DNA of 64,000 bases from assembly GCA_028751075.1 (NCBI GenBank), contig JAQZDA010000010.1, positions 1-64,000 on the forward strand, in the 5' to 3' direction. The translations under genes and the position numbers were made by a program. This DNA comes from Euryarchaeota archaeon Ods02 (GTDB lineage: Archaea > Halobacteriota > Halobacteria > Halobacteriales > Halorutilaceae). This document shows, piece after piece, positions 2,451-37,203 of the stretch. Each line of letters opens with the position of its first letter. Within the stretch, counting starts at the first letter, position 1. The notes under the pieces were generated by a model. That model searched no databases. It was not told the DNA's origin and saw only the letters and a list, made by a program, of their open reading frames with translations.

Positions 2451-2991
2451 CGTACGGGAGGTCTACCCGCCGAGAGAGGACAGCACCCTCCTCTTAGAGG
2501 CCGCGGAGAATGAGATATCTCCCGGTGACCGCGTCCTCGAGGTAGGCGTCGGCAGCGGGTACGTCGCCGTGAACCTCCAGGAGTCTGCGTCGACGGTCGT
2601 CGGCACCGACGTCAACCCCGCGGCGACGCGGCGTGCGAGAGACCGCGGCGTCGAAGCCGTCACCACAGACCTCGCCCACGGACTAAAGGGCGAGTTCGAC
2701 CTCGTCGTCTTCAACCCTCCATATCTGCCGGACACAGACGAGACACCCGACGACGCATTGGACGCGGCGCTCGCGGGCGGCGAATCCGGTGTGGAGACCG
2801 CGGAACGGTTCGTCGAGGATCTGCCGCGGCTGCTCTCCCCCGAAGGCAGCGCGTTCGTGGTCGCCAGCAGCCACGGCGACGTAGACCGATTGAAGAAGAC
2901 CGCTCGAAAGAAAGGTTTCGTGGTAGACGTCGCCGCCAGAGACCGGTTCTTCTTCGAGGATATCGTGGTCCTGCATCTCGAACCCCGCTGA
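2449..2991 (+). CDS. HemK/PrmC-like N5-glutamine methyltransferase, start disrupted
   Basis: Small archaeal HemK homologue that methylates the GGQ glutamine of peptide release factor aRF1. From the first possible codon the frame reads EVYPPREDSTLLLEAA, then the SAM motif VLEVGVGSG, then the catalytic NPPYLP, all typical of the family. The frame opens after a TGA at 2428-2430, but it contains no ATG, GTG or TTG until a GTG inside motif I (2569), which is too late. The ATG that overlaps the rsmA stop (2447) is out of frame by one base. One missing base in the stretch ATGACGTACGG would restore an N-terminus. This is either a sequence error, a real frameshift or a non-canonical start. Confidence 0.8.
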   Translation, partial: DVREVYPPREDSTLLLEAAENEISPGDRVLEVGVGSGYVAVNLQESASTVVGTDVNPAATRRARDRGVEAVTTDLAHGLKGEFDLVVFNPPYLPDTDETPDDALDAALAGGESGVETAERFVEDLPRLLSPEGSAFVVASSHGDVDRLKKTARKKGFVVDVAARDRFFFEDIVVLHLEPR

Positions 2992-3070
2992 CGTCGACTT
3001 CGAATCCGTCACCGTCGGCAGGCGAGTCCAAAGCAGAAGGTAGAAGCCCCCGACGCCCCCATCCAACGCC

Positions 3071-10095: not shown

Positions 10096-10121
10096 GCTGT
10101 CGAAACCCGGGCTATCGAGGC

Positions 10122-10235
10122 CGGCATAGAACCCGTGCTCGACCCGGGTTAGCTGAAACCGACCTGTCCGTCGGCGTCCACGTGGTCGTCGCGGACGCGG
10201 CATAGAACCCGTGCTCGACCCGGGTTAGCTGAAAC
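10122..10235. repeat. 38-38-38 bp repeat-spacer-repeat element
   Basis: Two identical 38-bp direct repeats (10122-10159 and 10198-10235) flank a unique 38-bp spacer. Each repeat holds an inverted repeat AACCCG-N9-CGGGTT and ends in CTGAAAC; read on the other strand it begins GTTTCAG. The element fills the space between the divergent argS and SIMPL promoters. The geometry resembles a two-repeat mini-CRISPR, but no cas genes are near. A local duplication, or an assembly artefact, is an equal alternative. Confidence 0.8.
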
Positions 10236-10258
10236 AGATGTTTTAGCTTACGTCAGAA

Positions 10259-10290: not shown

Positions 10291-11040
10291 ATGAAACAGA
10301 TACACAGATACAGTATTGGAGCAGTGGTGATCGCCCTCGTCTTGACGGGTGCGTTCGTAGCCGCCGCCGACGAAGGCGGCCCAGAAGACGTGGACAGCTA
10401 CATAGAGGTCTCAGCCTCCGGTGAAGCGAGCGCTGAACCCGACAGAGCCGTGGTGTCGCTCGAGGTCGAAGCACGAGACGACGACGTCGAAGCCGCCCGC
10501 GACGAAGCCGCGCGGCGCGCCGACAGCGTCACCGACGCCTTAGACGGCCTTGGACTTCAGGACAGCTACGAGACCACGGGCTTCGACGTCGGGCAGACTC
10601 GGCCGATATACGCCGAACGCGGGGAGGAGATGGAGGAGCCGGAGTTCGTCGCAAGCCACAGCTACCAGGTCACGCTCGACGACCCCGACCGCGCCGGAGA
10701 GGTCATAGACGAAGCCATAGACGCAGGAGCTACCGAGGTAGACGGGGTCTCCATGACGCTGTCGGAGAGCGAACGCGAACGCGTGAAGGACCGCGCGATC
10801 GAGGACGCTATGGATGAAGCACGGAGCCAGGCCGACACCCTCGCAGCCGCCGGCGCGCTCGACGTCGTCGGAGTCCGCAACGTAGAGTCAGGTGGAGCGG
10901 GAGTGTCACCTGTACGTGGCAACTACATGATGGAGATGGCTGAAGCCGACGACGCCTTAGACGACGCACCACCGACGGAGATAGAGCACGACGACGTCGA
11001 AGTCTCCGCGAGCGTCCAGGTGGTCTACGACGTCCGGTGA
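10291..11040 (+). CDS. Secreted SIMPL-domain (DUF541) protein
   Basis: Exported protein with an N-terminal hydrophobic signal segment (about 8-26), then a SIMPL/DUF541 domain (about 37-249). It begins IEVSASGEASAEPDRAVVSLEVEA and contains the long helix EAARDEAARRADSVTDAL, as in bacterial BP26/YggE oxidative-stress proteins. No lipobox or sortase tail is seen, so it is either released or kept by an uncleaved signal anchor. Length 249 is typical. The biochemical role of the family is unknown; protection against oxidative damage is suggested only for bacterial members. Confidence 0.8.
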   Translation: MKQIHRYSIGAVVIALVLTGAFVAAADEGGPEDVDSYIEVSASGEASAEPDRAVVSLEVEARDDDVEAARDEAARRADSVTDALDGLGLQDSYETTGFDVGQTRPIYAERGEEMEEPEFVASHSYQVTLDDPDRAGEVIDEAIDAGATEVDGVSMTLSESERERVKDRAIEDAMDEARSQADTLAAAGALDVVGVRNVESGGAGVSPVRGNYMMEMAEADDALDDAPPTEIEHDDVEVSASVQVVYDVR

Positions 11041-32818: not shown

Positions 32819-32971
32819 ATGAGCAAGAACTCCAAGGCGAAGAAACGCCGGCTCGCGAAGAAGAACCGGCAGAACGTCCGCGTGCCCGCATGGGTGATGA
32901 TGAAGACCGACCGCAACGTCACCAGGAACCCCAAACGCCGGAACTGGCGACGAAGCGACATAGACGAGTAG
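32819..32971 (+). CDS. rpl39e: Large-subunit ribosomal protein eL39 (L39e)
   Basis: A 50-residue very basic protein lining the ribosomal exit tunnel: [29 protein letters not shown] and [14 protein letters not shown] are the whole family signature. A longer in-frame extension upstream overlaps the GLUG gene and lacks ribosomal features. It is the first gene of the cluster; L31e follows after four bases. Confidence 0.96.
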
Positions 32972-32975
32972 AAGG

Positions 32976-33230
32976 ATGGAGGAACGCGTAATCACGGTAC
33001 CCCTGAGGGACGCGAAGGACGCGCCGAAACCCGAACGCGCCGGTAAAGCGATGAAGATAGTCAGGAGCGACCTCGCCAAGCACTTCAGCGCACCGGAAGA
33101 CGACGTCAACCTCGACGAATCCATCAACGAGGAGGTCTGGAGCCGCAGCCGGAGCAAGATACCCAGCAAGGTCCGGGTACGGGCCGCGAAGTTCGAGGAC
33201 GGAGTGGTCGAGGCCGAGCTGGCGGACTGA
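32976..33230 (+). CDS. rpl31e: Large-subunit ribosomal protein eL31 (L31e)
   Basis: An 84-residue ribosomal protein near the exit tunnel rim. Family features include RVITVPLRDAKDAPKPERAGKAMKIVRSDLAKHF and the closing VRVRAAKFEDGVVE. The stop overlaps the ATG of eif6 by one base (TGATG), so translation is coupled. Confidence 0.95.
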   Translation: MEERVITVPLRDAKDAPKPERAGKAMKIVRSDLAKHFSAPEDDVNLDESINEEVWSRSRSKIPSKVRVRAAKFEDGVVEAELAD

Positions 33231-33886
33231 TGCTGAGAGCGAACTTCAACGGAAGCCCCTTCCTCGGAGTCTTCGCGGAAGCCACGGAAGACAGCTTGCT
33301 CGTCGCAAGCGGAGTAGACCACGGGGACGTCGCCGACGAGCTCGACGTCGACGCCGTATACAGCGGAACCATAGCGAACAGCAGCGTCATCGGCAGCACA
33401 GCCGTTGCCAACAGCCACGGTGCACTCGTCACCGACGACGCACTCGACCACGAGATAGAGAAGATAGAAGACGAAGCAGACGTACCGGTTACCCGGTTCC
33501 CCGGACCCCCGAACGCCGTCGGCAACTTCGTCCTCGCGAACGACGAAGCCGCCGCCGTCAGCCCCGGCCTCGACAGCGGGCAACGGGAAGCAGTGGAAGA
33601 CGCCCTCGACGTAGACGTCGAACCCGCGACCCTCGGCGGCCTCGATGTCGTCGGAAGCGCAGCCGTCGCCACCACATCGGGAGTTCTCTGCCACCCCCGA
33701 AGCAGCGACGAAGAGCTCCGGACCATCGAGGACGTCTTCGACGTCCACGTCGACGTCGGCACCGTGAACTACGGCACGCCGCTCGTAGGCAGCGGCCTCG
33801 TCGCCAACACCAGGGGATACGTCGCCGGCACCGAGACCACCGGCCCCGAGCTCGGACGCATCGAAGAGACACTGGGGTTCGTCTGA
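33230..33886 (+). CDS. eif6: Translation initiation factor aIF6
   Basis: Ribosome anti-association factor that binds the 50S subunit. It shows the five-fold repeat of about 40-45 residues of the pentein-like fold, for example GTIANSSVIGSTAVANSHGALV, GLDVVGSAAVATTSGVLCHP and PLVGSGLVANTRGYVAGTETTGPELGRIEE. Length 218 is standard. In most archaea rpl18a, prefoldin alpha and ftsY follow directly; here a serpin gene intervenes. Confidence 0.95.
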   Translation: MLRANFNGSPFLGVFAEATEDSLLVASGVDHGDVADELDVDAVYSGTIANSSVIGSTAVANSHGALVTDDALDHEIEKIEDEADVPVTRFPGPPNAVGNFVLANDEAAAVSPGLDSGQREAVEDALDVDVEPATLGGLDVVGSAAVATTSGVLCHPRSSDEELRTIEDVFDVHVDVGTVNYGTPLVGSGLVANTRGYVAGTETTGPELGRIEETLGFV

Positions 33887-33921: not shown

Positions 33922-33937
33922 TGAAACCGCTGTTTCA
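33922..33937. promoter_or_regulatory. Inverted repeat upstream of serpin gene
   Basis: TGAAAC-N4-GTTTCA, a perfect 6-bp dyad between eif6 and the serpin promoter. It could be a weak terminator for the ribosomal transcript or an operator for the serpin. Confidence 0.4.
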
Positions 33938-33950
33938 CCCTACGTAACCG

Positions 33951-33958
33951 CCTTAACC
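33951..33958 (+). promoter_or_regulatory. TATA-like box for serpin gene
   Basis: CCTTAACC is centred about 25 bp before the serpin ATG, so the serpin probably has its own transcript. Confidence 0.45.
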
Positions 33959-33979: not shown

Positions 33980-35401
33980 ATGCAGAACAGCATCGACCGC
34001 AGGAGCCTGCTCGCGTTCGCCGCATTGTCGGCGGCGTCCGGCTGCCTGCACGAACCCGACGAAGATGGCGAAGCCGACGGAACGGAAGACGCCGATACAG
34101 ATATCTCAGGTGACGGCGACGCCGACGATGCATCCGACGTCGACGTCGAAGACGTGGAGTTCCCCGTGATAGAGGAGCTATTCACTTCTCCAGACGTAGG
34201 CCTCGACGTGCTCGCGCGGCAGGTGAGGGGGAACTTCACCTTCACCCTCGACCTCCTGCGGGAGCTGGCTGACGACGAACCCGAAGCCAACGTGTTCTAC
34301 TCGCCGTACAGCGTGAGCGTCGCGCTCGCGATGGTTCAGGCGGGAGCGCGGGGCACCACCGCCGACGAGATACAGGAGACGATGCAGTACCTCGAAGGCG
34401 ACGGCTTGCACGACGCGTTCGGCGCGCTCGAACGGGAGCTCGACGCGAGGAACGAGGAAGGCAGCGAGGTACAGGATCCGATGACGCCCGACGACGCCGA
34501 CGACGGAGACGACGAGGAAGACCCGGCGTTCAGGTTGAACACCGCGAACCGGCTGTGGCCGCGCGACGACGTCGAGCTCGTCGAGAGCTACGTCGACCTT
34601 CTCGCCAGCGAGTACGACGCCGACCTCGAACCACTGGACTTCGCAGGTGCGCCGGAGGAGAGCCGCGAGCACATCAACAGCTGGGTCGCCGACGAGACCG
34701 AGGACCGAATCGAGGACCTCCTGCCGGAGGGCAGCGTCGACGGGCAGACGCCTCTGGTGTTGACGAACGCGGTGTACTTCAACGCGCTCTGGAGCTACCA
34801 GTTCGACGAGGCGAACACGAGCGCAGGCAGCTTCACCTCCATCGACGGCAGCGAACACGAGGTCGAGTTCATGAGGCAGAGCGTCGAGCTACCGTACGCG
34901 GAGGTCGACGGCCACCAGCTACTGGAGCTACCGTACGAGAACGGCGACACCAGCATGGTGCTCCTGCTGCCGGCGGAGGACGGCTATAGGGAGTTCGAAC
35001 GGGGGCTCGACGTCGACACCGTAGGTGGGTTGCTCGACGAAGCCGGGCGTCCGGAGGTGGAGATGGAGGTGCCGAAGTTCCGCGTTGAAAGCGAGTTCGC
35101 GCTGTCCGACGTCCTCCAGAGCCTCGGGATGGAGACGGCGTTCACGGCCGACGCTGACTTCAGTGGTATCGGCGACGTCGGCTGGCTCGACGAGGTGTTC
35201 CACGAATCATTCGTGGACGTCGACGAGAAGGGCACCGAGGCAGCGGCGGCGACCGCCGCGGTCTTCTTGGAGAGTGCGCCACCTGATCACGTCGAGGTAT
35301 CCTTCGACCGTCCGTTCCTGTTCTACGTCCGCGACCGGCCGACGGAGACCCCGTTGTTCTGGGGGCGCGTCGTCGACGGCGGCGACCTCGACGGCGACTA
35401 A
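33980..35401 (+). CDS. Tat-exported serpin lipoprotein
   Basis: Serine protease inhibitor of the serpin superfamily. The N-terminus has a twin-arginine motif DRRSLLAF and a lipobox AASGC, so it is likely exported folded by Tat and lipid-anchored. An acidic spacer (about 24-60) leads to the serpin domain (about 70-465). That domain contains NVFYSPYSVSVALAMVQAGARGTT, LTNAVYFNALW and the C-terminal DRPFLFYVRD. The reactive-centre hinge EKGTEAAAATAAV has the small residues needed for loop insertion, so it is predicted inhibitory. By spacing from the hinge, P1-P1' would be Ser-Ala. It stands between eif6 and rpl18a. Confidence 0.93.
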   Translation: MQNSIDRRSLLAFAALSAASGCLHEPDEDGEADGTEDADTDISGDGDADDASDVDVEDVEFPVIEELFTSPDVGLDVLARQVRGNFTFTLDLLRELADDEPEANVFYSPYSVSVALAMVQAGARGTTADEIQETMQYLEGDGLHDAFGALERELDARNEEGSEVQDPMTPDDADDGDDEEDPAFRLNTANRLWPRDDVELVESYVDLLASEYDADLEPLDFAGAPEESREHINSWVADETEDRIEDLLPEGSVDGQTPLVLTNAVYFNALWSYQFDEANTSAGSFTSIDGSEHEVEFMRQSVELPYAEVDGHQLLELPYENGDTSMVLLLPAEDGYREFERGLDVDTVGGLLDEAGRPEVEMEVPKFRVESEFALSDVLQSLGMETAFTADADFSGIGDVGWLDEVFHESFVDVDEKGTEAAAATAAVFLESAPPDHVEVSFDRPFLFYVRDRPTETPLFWGRVVDGGDLDGD

Positions 35402-35464: not shown

Positions 35465-35471
35465 CTTATAC
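35465..35471 (+). promoter_or_regulatory. TATA box for rpl18a-pfdA-ftsY
   Basis: CTTATAC is centred 27 bp before the rpl18a ATG. It gives the downstream half of the split ribosomal cluster its own leaderless transcript. Confidence 0.6.
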
Positions 35472-35494
35472 ATCCGAGAGCACTTCCATGAAAC

Positions 35495-35689
35495 ATGACT
35501 GAGTACGAGGTCACGGGAGAGTTCGAGCCCGGAGGAGAACGCAGGAGCTTCACCACTACGGTGGAGGCGGAGAACGAGGACGTGGCGCGCGAACGCGTCT
35601 ACAGCAACCTCGGCAGCAAACACAGGCTGAAGCGCAATCAGATAGAGATCGAAGCCGTTACAGAGGCAGCGGAAGCGGGTGCTAGCTAG
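35495..35689 (+). CDS. rpl18a: Large-subunit ribosomal protein eL18-type LX (L18Ae)
   Basis: A 64-residue archaeal ribosomal protein LX/L18Ae. It begins EYEVTGEF and carries the typical ENEDVARERVYSNLGSKHRLKRNQIEIE ending, with short additional residues after. The stop directly abuts the pfdA ATG. It normally follows eif6; the serpin separates them here. Confidence 0.93.
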   Translation: MTEYEVTGEFEPGGERRSFTTTVEAENEDVARERVYSNLGSKHRLKRNQIEIEAVTEAAEAGAS

Positions 35690-36097
35690 ATGGCGGGAGC
35701 TAACCAGGACGTACAACGGCTCAGCCAGGAGTACGAGGAGCTCGGTGAAGCCATCCAGCAGCTTCAGCAGGCGAAAGCCCAGGTGGAAGCCCAGATAAAC
35801 GGATGCGAGGGCGCGGTCGAGAGCCTGGAGTCCATCGACAGCGGCGAAGACATACTTGTCTCCCTCGGAGGCGACACCCGGATACGCGCCAACGTGGAGG
35901 ACATCGAAGAGGTGTTGGTAGGCGTCGGAGCCGACGTCACCCTGGAGCTCGAACGCGGGGAAGCCGTGGAGCAGCTGGAGGAGAAGATAGACAAGCTCGA
36001 AGCCCAGAAGAAGGATCTCGACGCGGAGATACAGGACAAGGAGGAGCGGCTTCAGGAGGTCGCTCAGCAGGCGCAGCAGGCGCAGCTCGGTAGATAG
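35690..36097 (+). CDS. pfdA: Prefoldin subunit alpha
   Basis: Alpha subunit of the hexameric chaperone prefoldin (GimC), which passes unfolded proteins to the thermosome. It has two long coiled-coil helices (about 5-48 and 88-130) joined by beta hairpins (about 50-85, ILVSLGGDTRIRANV, VGVGADVTLEL). Length 135. It lies between rpl18a and ftsY in the usual archaeal order. Confidence 0.94.
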   Translation: MAGANQDVQRLSQEYEELGEAIQQLQQAKAQVEAQINGCEGAVESLESIDSGEDILVSLGGDTRIRANVEDIEEVLVGVGADVTLELERGEAVEQLEEKIDKLEAQKKDLDAEIQDKEERLQEVAQQAQQAQLGR

Positions 36098-36102
36098 AAC
36101 AG

Positions 36103-37203
36103 ATGTTCGACGGCCTCAGAGACAAGCTCGACGAGTTCCGCGAGGACGCCGACGAAGCCGTCGAAGAAGCCGAAGACTCCGAAGACAGCTCTGAAGAGGC
36201 CGTCGAGGCGGACGTTCAGTCGGAATCAGCCGACGACGTCGACGCAGAAGCCGCCGAGGAAGCAGCTGAAGACGCTGCCGGTGAACCCGAGCCCGATGAA
36301 GCCTCGGGCTCGGGTTTCGCGGGGAAGGCGAGGAGCCTCGTCGGCGACCGCGCGTTCGTCATCGACGAGGAGAGCCTCGACGGCCTTTTGGAGGAGCTAG
36401 AGATAGCGCTGTTGAGCAGCGACGTCGAGGTCGAGGTCACCCGCGAGATCAAGGACAGGGTGCGCGACAGCTTGGTCGGCGAGAAGAAGCACTGGCGGGA
36501 GAGCAAGGAGGACCTCGTCGTCGACGCGCTCCACGACGCACTCGTCGACGTACTAGAGGTCGATGGCTTCGACTTCGACAGCTACGTACAGGACGCCGAG
36601 AAACCCGTCGTAGTCGTGTTCACCGGCGTCAACGGCGTCGGCAAAACAACCTCTATAGCGAAGATAGCGGAACGGCTGGAGAACCAGGGTCTGTCGTCGG
36701 TGATGGCGAACGGAGACACCTACCGCGCCGGCGCCAACCAGCAGATACAGGAGCACGCTGAAGCCCTCGACAAGAAGGTCATCGTCCGCGAACAAGGCAG
36801 CGACCCCACCAGCGTCATCTACGACGCCGTCGAACACGCGGAAGCCAACGACGTCGACGTAGTGTTAGGTGACACAGCCGGCCGCCTCCACACCAGCGAC
36901 GACCTCATGAAACAGCTGGAGAAGATCGAACGCGTCGTCGAACCCGACCTCACCCTGTTCGTCGACGAAGCCGTCGCAGGACAGGACGCCGTAGAACGCG
37001 CCAGGGAGTTCGACAGCGCCGCCGAGATAGACGGCGTAGTGCTCACGAAAGCCGACGCCGACGCCCAAGGCGGCGCCGCCATCAGCATCAGCCACGTCAC
37101 CGGGAAACCCATCGTCTTCCTCGGGACAGGACAGGGATACAGTGACCTCGAGGAGTTCGACGCCGAAGAGCTCGTCGACCGATTGTTGGAACGCGGCGGC
37201 TGA
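36103..37203 (+). CDS. ftsY: Signal recognition particle receptor FtsY
   Basis: SRP GTPase that docks the ribosome-SRP complex at the membrane. An acidic, low-complexity N-terminal A domain (about 1-70) precedes the N domain. The G domain has G1 GVNGVGKTTS (about 175-184), the TYRAGANQQ insertion-box region, DTAGR and TKADADAQGGAA, ending GQGYSDLEEFDAEELVDRLL. Length 366 is ordinary for halophiles. It acts with the SRP19 encoded elsewhere in this window. Confidence 0.95.
   Translation: MFDGLRDKLDEFREDADEAVEEAEDSEDSSEEAVEADVQSESADDVDAEAAEEAAEDAAGEPEPDEASGSGFAGKARSLVGDRAFVIDEESLDGLLEELEIALLSSDVEVEVTREIKDRVRDSLVGEKKHWRESKEDLVVDALHDALVDVLEVDGFDFDSYVQDAEKPVVVVFTGVNGVGKTTSIAKIAERLENQGLSSVMANGDTYRAGANQQIQEHAEALDKKVIVREQGSDPTSVIYDAVEHAEANDVDVVLGDTAGRLHTSDDLMKQLEKIERVVEPDLTLFVDEAVAGQDAVERAREFDSAAEIDGVVLTKADADAQGGAAISISHVTGKPIVFLGTGQGYSDLEEFDAEELVDRLLERGG

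Follow-up and report, generated by a model that had tools for sequence, protein, structure and literature searches.

Genes and promoters at the eIF6-L18Ae junction

The window, that is, the whole stretch of 64,000 nucleotides that was analyzed, carries a serpin gene at positions 33980 to 35401 that separates the genes for eIF6 and L18Ae; all window features given here by position lie on the plus strand. Upstream are rpl39e (32819 to 32971; 50 amino acids), recognized by its sequence and its conserved position before L31e, rpl31e (32976 to 33230; PF01198, 32 bits), and eif6 (33230 to 33886; PF01912, 201 bits), the last gene of the upstream unit. Downstream follow rpl18a (35495 to 35689; PF01775, 71 bits), pfdA for prefoldin alpha (35690 to 36097; PF02996, 67 bits), and ftsY (36103 to 37203; PF00448, 228 bits). 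A first-pass annotation of this DNA had named the same neighbors, and Pfam agrees for L31e, eIF6, L18Ae, prefoldin alpha, and FtsY, sequence and synteny for L39e. The open reading frame that it had called a serpin is exact as given: it starts with ATG, encodes 473 amino acids, and matches the serpin domain PF00079 with 340 bits (E = 2e-101; curated cutoff, 27), residues 85 to 466 aligning with profile positions 3 to 369 of 370. It is the sole serpin in the host genome.

The serpin promoter is read here as tripartite: the inverted repeat (16 bp; −58 to −43 relative to the ATG) is followed by a TATA-like box and then by a leaderless start. The repeat, TGAAAC-CGCT-GTTTCA (TGAAACCGCTGTTTCA), occupies positions 33922 to 33937 and ends 42 bp before the ATG; the pattern TGAAACNNNNGTTTCA is matched there with no mismatch to T[GC]AAAC-N4-GTTT[GC]A, and a flank common to the sites, CCCTAC, runs on to 33943. 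The TATA-like box CTTAAC (33952 to 33957; 24 to 29 bp before the ATG) was assigned by its position and by aligned serpin promoters (...CTACAGAAAGCGTTTA...), and with it the gene does have the TATA box of its own that had been ascribed to it. The first-pass annotation did not remark on the palindrome upstream of this box.

L18Ae has a leaderless promoter with a TATA box at 35465 to 35472. In the serpin-free loci L063 and L064, an equivalent TTATAC is found at the same distance before L18Ae, and nearly all upstream regions compared from other Halobacteria have a GGAAGNTNCTTCC-like element at this position. The promoter that the downstream half of the cluster was said to have acquired is thus real but not acquired. 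Since serpin-free relatives also possess it, two transcription units met at this junction even before the insertion; a gene with its own promoter would have landed between the units L39e-L31e-eIF6 and L18Ae-pfdA-FtsY, and no operon was broken because the insertion fell between the two. The GGAAGNTNCTTCC element is itself near-palindromic and lies about 36 to 22 bp before the L18Ae ATG in Halobacteria, with a plain TTATAC at this place in the family of the host.

A dyad at fixed distance from genes for exported proteins

The host genome (2.27 Mb) contains 10 perfect sites of TGAAACNNNNGTTTCA, compared to none for a reversed-pattern control, and allowing one mismatch adds a single site, at 10230 to 10245 in the window. 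With start codons and signals assigned by simple patterns, 8 of the 10 perfect sites have the start codon of an exported protein 42 to 46 bp downstream; these are the serpin and five more Tat lipoproteins, a protein of the Sec type, and a membrane/PGF-CTERM protein with DUF7490. The ninth precedes a further Tat lipoprotein at a distance of 79 bp, and a second partial copy stands between the two; the tenth, at L272, is ambiguous. The site with one mismatch (TGAAACAGATGTTTTA) is located 45 bp before the gene of an exported SIMPL (DUF541) protein (10291 to 11040; PF04402, 143 bits), a putative member of the same regulon. Co-regulation of the serpin with the subtilases of the host was considered and rejected, as none of the 10 perfect sites is on a subtilase contig.

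The element is conserved well beyond this genome. T[GC]AAACN4GTTT[GC]A, with up to three mismatches, was found 41 to 43 bp before an in-frame start in 62 of 85 distinct haloarchaeal serpin genes, compared to 0 to 5 of the 85 at five shifted offsets, and the aligned promoters read TGAAACNNNNGTTTCA-CYCTACAGAAAGCGTTTA-...-ATG. The serpin of the family relative G295, which resides at another locus and belongs to another serpin lineage, has a perfect copy. At SIMPL loci, the slightly looser WSAAACN4GTTTSW (up to two mismatches) was present in 16 of the 30 best-scoring loci of the class, which are not a random sample, versus about 5% of control places; in loci read by eye from printed sequences, its spacing to SIMPL is 41 to 45 bp from the likely Met start. 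A strict 22-base pattern, TSAAACNNNNGTTTSANYCTAC, too strict to measure spread, was recovered from 12 genomes of the class (control, 0); where a clear gene followed at the right distance, it encoded SIMPL, a lipoprotein, or, in one case, a membrane winged-helix protein, and some sites had no clear gene. The exact 16-mer occurs in 67 of 294 Halobacteria genomes and its reversed control in about a dozen, a weaker enrichment in other families. An exported gene follows in 9 of 30 exact sites inspected in other Halobacteria and not in the remaining 21; therefore, the 16-mer alone is an imperfect marker.

The inverted repeat is a putative binding site of a regulator, most likely of an activator (UAS), since it is located directly upstream of BRE/TATA at an invariant distance that suits contact with the basal machinery. 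It might instead be the operator of a repressor, or lipoprotein genes might carry it generally as part of their promoters; we regard these alternatives as rather unlikely. The dyad abuts BRE/TATA, where a bound protein could block TFB, and the invariant spacing of 41 to 43 bp, typical of basal-machinery contact, is yet compatible with repression. Many targets of the dyad are indeed lipoproteins, but the genome has only 10 to 11 sites, and three other Tat lipoprotein genes on the same 80-kb contig (about 75 genes kept) lack it, for which reason a general lipoprotein promoter was rejected. An activator site thus remains the preferred reading. To our knowledge, no haloarchaeal element resembles this half-site other than the GvpE-responsive UAS of the gas-vesicle promoters, an activating element just before BRE/TATA that has a TGAAAC half. 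That element is non-palindromic and specific to gas vesicles, in contrast to the perfect dyad described here before exported-protein genes. Activation by GvpE has been described, with a PpA oligonucleotide that includes TGAAAC (PMC6550001).

A predicted lipid-anchored protease inhibitor

Beyond the Pfam match, 197 distinct PDB sequences match the window serpin, the best being human SCCA1/SerpinB3-B4 (8e-64). An AlphaFold model, computed with 31 haloarchaeal sequences as input, has a mean pLDDT of 80.9, with values mostly above 90 in the serpin domain, and all of the top Foldseek matches shown were serpins, so that model and search place the protein within the serpin fold. Cleaved miropin of Tannerella forsythia, a solved bacterial serpin, superimposes on the model with a TM-score of 0.92 to 0.93 (by target length) at 30 to 31% identity; it differs in organism, ecology, and loop sequence.

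Residues 1 to 22 (MQNSIDRRSLLAFAALSAASGC; 33980 to 34045), read from the sequence, form a predicted Tat signal with the motif DRRSLL and the lipobox AASGC (Cys22). Twin arginine, hydrophobic core, and lipobox cysteine are all recognizable by inspection and by pattern (DRRSLLAFAALSAASGC), as the first-pass annotation had said. Residues 23 to 84 (34046 to 34231) are an acidic linker, by composition, and mostly predicted to be disordered, with pLDDT values below 50 across residues 1 to 70. Besides serpin homology, a predicted fold and a predicted export signal are documented here.

Hinge and reactive-center loop (residues 416 to 440, EKGTEAAAATAAVFLES|APPDHVEV; 35225 to 35299) were delimited by two alignments, one of them with SCCA1; the loop reads DEKGTEAAAATAAVFLESAPPDHVEV. 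The published inhibitory hinge consensus of serpins for P17 to P9 is ExGTEAAAA (PMC8233489), and residues 416 to 424, EKGTEAAAA, match it (x = E/K/R). With G418 as P15, counting by loop length alone places the putative P1 at S432 and P1′ at A433. Among the 84 haloarchaeal serpins whose hinge fitted the pattern, P12 to P9 are AAAA in 74 and the P1 equivalent is Ser in 50, and S-A-P around the putative P1 is kept in many haloarchaeal serpins. The host genome also encodes two exported S8 proteases (subtilases), one of them at L273:3910-5997, and these could be endogenous targets. A role as inhibitor at the cell surface is plausible and would fit the intact hinge and the two subtilases.

We infer a course of events that leads from activator binding at the dyad, by which the serpin would join a few other exported proteins in one small regulon, through anchoring to the inhibition of a target protease. 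The folded serpin would be exported by Tat and then lipid anchored at Cys22, the disordered acidic linker holding the serpin domain outside the membrane. In this position it would trap proteases by a suicide mechanism: once a subtilisin-like protease had cut the reactive loop, putatively between S432 and A433, the hinge EKGTEAAAA would allow the loop to insert into sheet A, locking the protease covalently.

Certain serpins have lost inhibition, and the window protein, a predicted inhibitor, might likewise be non-inhibitory, such as a binding or storage serpin. We consider this improbable, for its inhibitory hinge is perfect, the S-A-P is kept in many haloarchaeal serpins, and inhibition of subtilisin and chymotrypsin has been reported for the archaeal Pnserpin and Tkserpin (PMC8233489). 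These two group S serpins have both the family and the inhibitory hinge in common with the window serpin. For hub-like prokaryotic serpins, an intracellular housekeeping role has been proposed (PMC8233489); the window serpin is instead predicted to be exported and lipid anchored.

Serpins are widespread in Halobacteria

Serpins had been called uncommon, which does not hold within Halobacteria, where we found them in 73 of 294 genomes and 36 of the 78 genera sampled; one, in Natrialba magadii, was noted as early as 2012 (PMC3403918). A Tat motif and a lipobox were detected by pattern in 81 of 90 haloarchaeal serpins, and therefore a surface lipoprotein is the rule among them and no peculiarity of the window copy. 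The window serpin is a further member of this widespread, known family. Its full-length identity to the Tat-lipoprotein serpins of Natrialbaceae archaeon Tc-Br11_E2g8, Natribaculum breve, Natrialba hulunbeirensis, and Halorussus litoreus is 48 to 53%, and its core identity to Natrialbaceae/Haladaptataceae serpins reaches about 57 to 58%. The latter have, like the window serpin, the Tat motif, lipobox, acidic linker, hinge GTEAAAAT, and conserved S-A-P loop and, in most cases, the promoter dyad 41 to 43 bp before the start. The window serpin differs from them in its long separate branch and in its eIF6-L18Ae site, which is unique among the serpins examined.

Insertion at a permissive junction

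The family of the host comprises four genomes. In G295, the sole family relative with an undisturbed junction, the gap between eIF6 and L18Ae is 35 bp and contains neither a serpin nor a remnant of one; the serpin of this genome is found elsewhere, beside a fumarase-like gene. The junction of G220 also lacks a serpin and holds a different insert, and G294, which gave no eIF6 match, is too incomplete to be judged. Ribosomal-cluster genes stood beside the serpin only in the window's own copies among 173 serpin loci, in about 165 others not at all, within flanks of 1 to 1.5 kb for most genomes of the class and up to 6 kb for some. The absence of the serpin here in G295 and G220 and of any other serpin locus at the cluster makes the placement lineage specific: the serpin is a lineage-specific insertion between eIF6 and L18Ae. 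The first-pass annotation was right, for this lineage only, that a Tat-lipoprotein serpin parts the two genes; a serpin shared by all haloarchaea at this position, which by its own account would have made the gene ancestral, was looked for in the relatives and serpin loci and not found.

The gene order, described as highly conserved in archaea, is not so at this point in Halobacteria. In 49 Halobacteria loci with both genes (some genomes counted twice), the eIF6-L18Ae gap ranges from 35 bp to 3.3 kb, and the open reading frames inside, judged by inspection, are unrelated: ASCH-like (on the opposite strand), SDR dehydrogenase, ArsC-like, LD-carboxypeptidase-like, and HTH proteins. The spot is thus a permissive junction that tolerates unrelated genes throughout Halobacteria. 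At its borders, the insert of G220 (L064:1016-1448; about 430 bp) carries an 11-bp repeat of the eIF6 3′ end (CTCGGCTTCGT), and integration may have rebuilt the end of the eIF6 gene. On its opposite strand lies an open reading frame of 125 amino acids that has no Pfam match but includes a PD-(D/E)XK-like stretch (DFDVYDP..HEIEVKTG). Unlike this insert, the window serpin has no flanking repeat of the eIF6 3′ end that could be seen by eye.

A serpin phylogeny, which had been suggested as a check, grouped the window copy with Natrialbaceae/Halorussus serpins and not with that of G295. In one tree it is located within a 13-row clade with Natrialbaceae and Haladaptataceae-type (Halorussus) serpins (support, 100/100); in another it is the sister of a 28-row clade (SH-aLRT, 92). 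The branch of the window serpin is long (0.68), and there is no close donor; despite this, the serpin is most simply explained by a separate acquisition through horizontal transfer, with the choice between gain and repeated loss resting on the tree and few genomes (family n = 4; host draft about 90% complete). Alternatively, the ancestor of the family could already have carried the serpin at this junction, with later loss there in G220 and in G295, whose present serpin would be the relocated gene. With few family genomes, and G294 too incomplete to weigh in, such a history has some room, but we hold it to be improbable: a clade of the window and G295 serpins was rejected (AU P = 0.006), the 35-bp junction of G295 is free of remnants and the insert of G220 is a different one, and none of the other haloarchaeal serpin loci compared occupies the eIF6-L18Ae site. 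An assembly or binning artifact, conceivable in a draft of 56 contigs, is very improbable, given that the serpin is interior to a 79.7-kb contig, has a host-like composition (GC3 of 0.86 versus 0.80 for eIF6), and carries a promoter element (TGAAACCGCTGTTTCACCCTACGTAACC) almost identical to a host site (...CTCTACGTAACC) at C34.

A candidate cell-surface regulon

Taken together, the window gene is best explained as coding for an unexceptional inhibitory serpin, a Tat lipoprotein like most serpins of haloarchaea, with insertion at a transcription-unit boundary and a regulon dyad in its promoter; we assign this joint explanation a probability of about 0.78. The new point is the promoter, namely, a position-locked dyad common to the serpin, SIMPL, and several surface lipoprotein genes, and the serpin probably belongs to a conserved cell-surface regulon that has not been described. 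A full-text literature search, with most subscription journals outside its reach, found no description of a haloarchaeal lipoprotein or surface regulon.

As we picture this regulon, at even odds for the reading as a whole, the dyad T[GC]AAAC-N4-GTTT[GC]A, 41 to 46 bp before leaderless starts, would be its predicted controlling site, and the membrane serpin, SIMPL (DUF541), and Tat lipoproteins, one of them with a BamB-like PQQ propeller, would be its members. In some genomes, a membrane-bound winged-helix protein of the HVO_1552 type may serve as its autoregulated sensor. The partnership of SIMPL and lipoproteins suggests a function in surface quality or envelope stress, and the regulon could correspond in archaea to the envelope-stress control of bacteria, control of surface proteolysis being one of its outputs. 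If true, serpins would move between loci and lineages carrying the dyad switch with them. When and why prokaryotes deploy serpins is treated as unresolved (PMC8233489); a real regulon would offer a way to ask this for the surface serpins of archaea, and it names genes and a DNA site that are testable in genetically tractable haloarchaea.

The HVO_1552-type protein is a candidate for an autoregulated regulator. At L318:1559-2212 (G201), the dyad lies 42 bp ahead of the start of a membrane-bound winged-helix protein (HTH_20 plus HVO_1552_C), and homologs of this protein in Natrialbaceae-type genomes (L346 to L348, L360, and L361) have similar upstream dyads with 0 to 3 mismatches. The sole homolog in the host genome (L350) has no element upstream, and therefore this protein stays a weak lead.

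Several sites are more elaborate than the 16-mer. Before the SIMPL gene of the window (10120 to 10245), some 40 bp (GGCATAGAACCCGTGCTCGACCCGGGTTAGCTGAAAC) are tandemly repeated and duplicate the left part of the element, and tandem partial copies of the dyad plus flank (CACGTAGGCTGAAACAGCTGTTACGTAGGCTGAAACAGCTGTTTCA) precede a Tat lipoprotein gene at L264 (around 2961 to 3016). At L271 (around 2993 to 3024), the dyad is embedded in a longer, near-perfect palindrome, GTTTACGTAGGGTGAAAC-CGGG-GTTTCAGCCTCC (plus strand), between divergent genes for the DUF7490/PGF-CTERM protein and an XRE-type HTH protein. With this palindrome and the flanks TAGRC/GYCTA at other sites, the putative binding site may extend beyond the 16 bp of the dyad.
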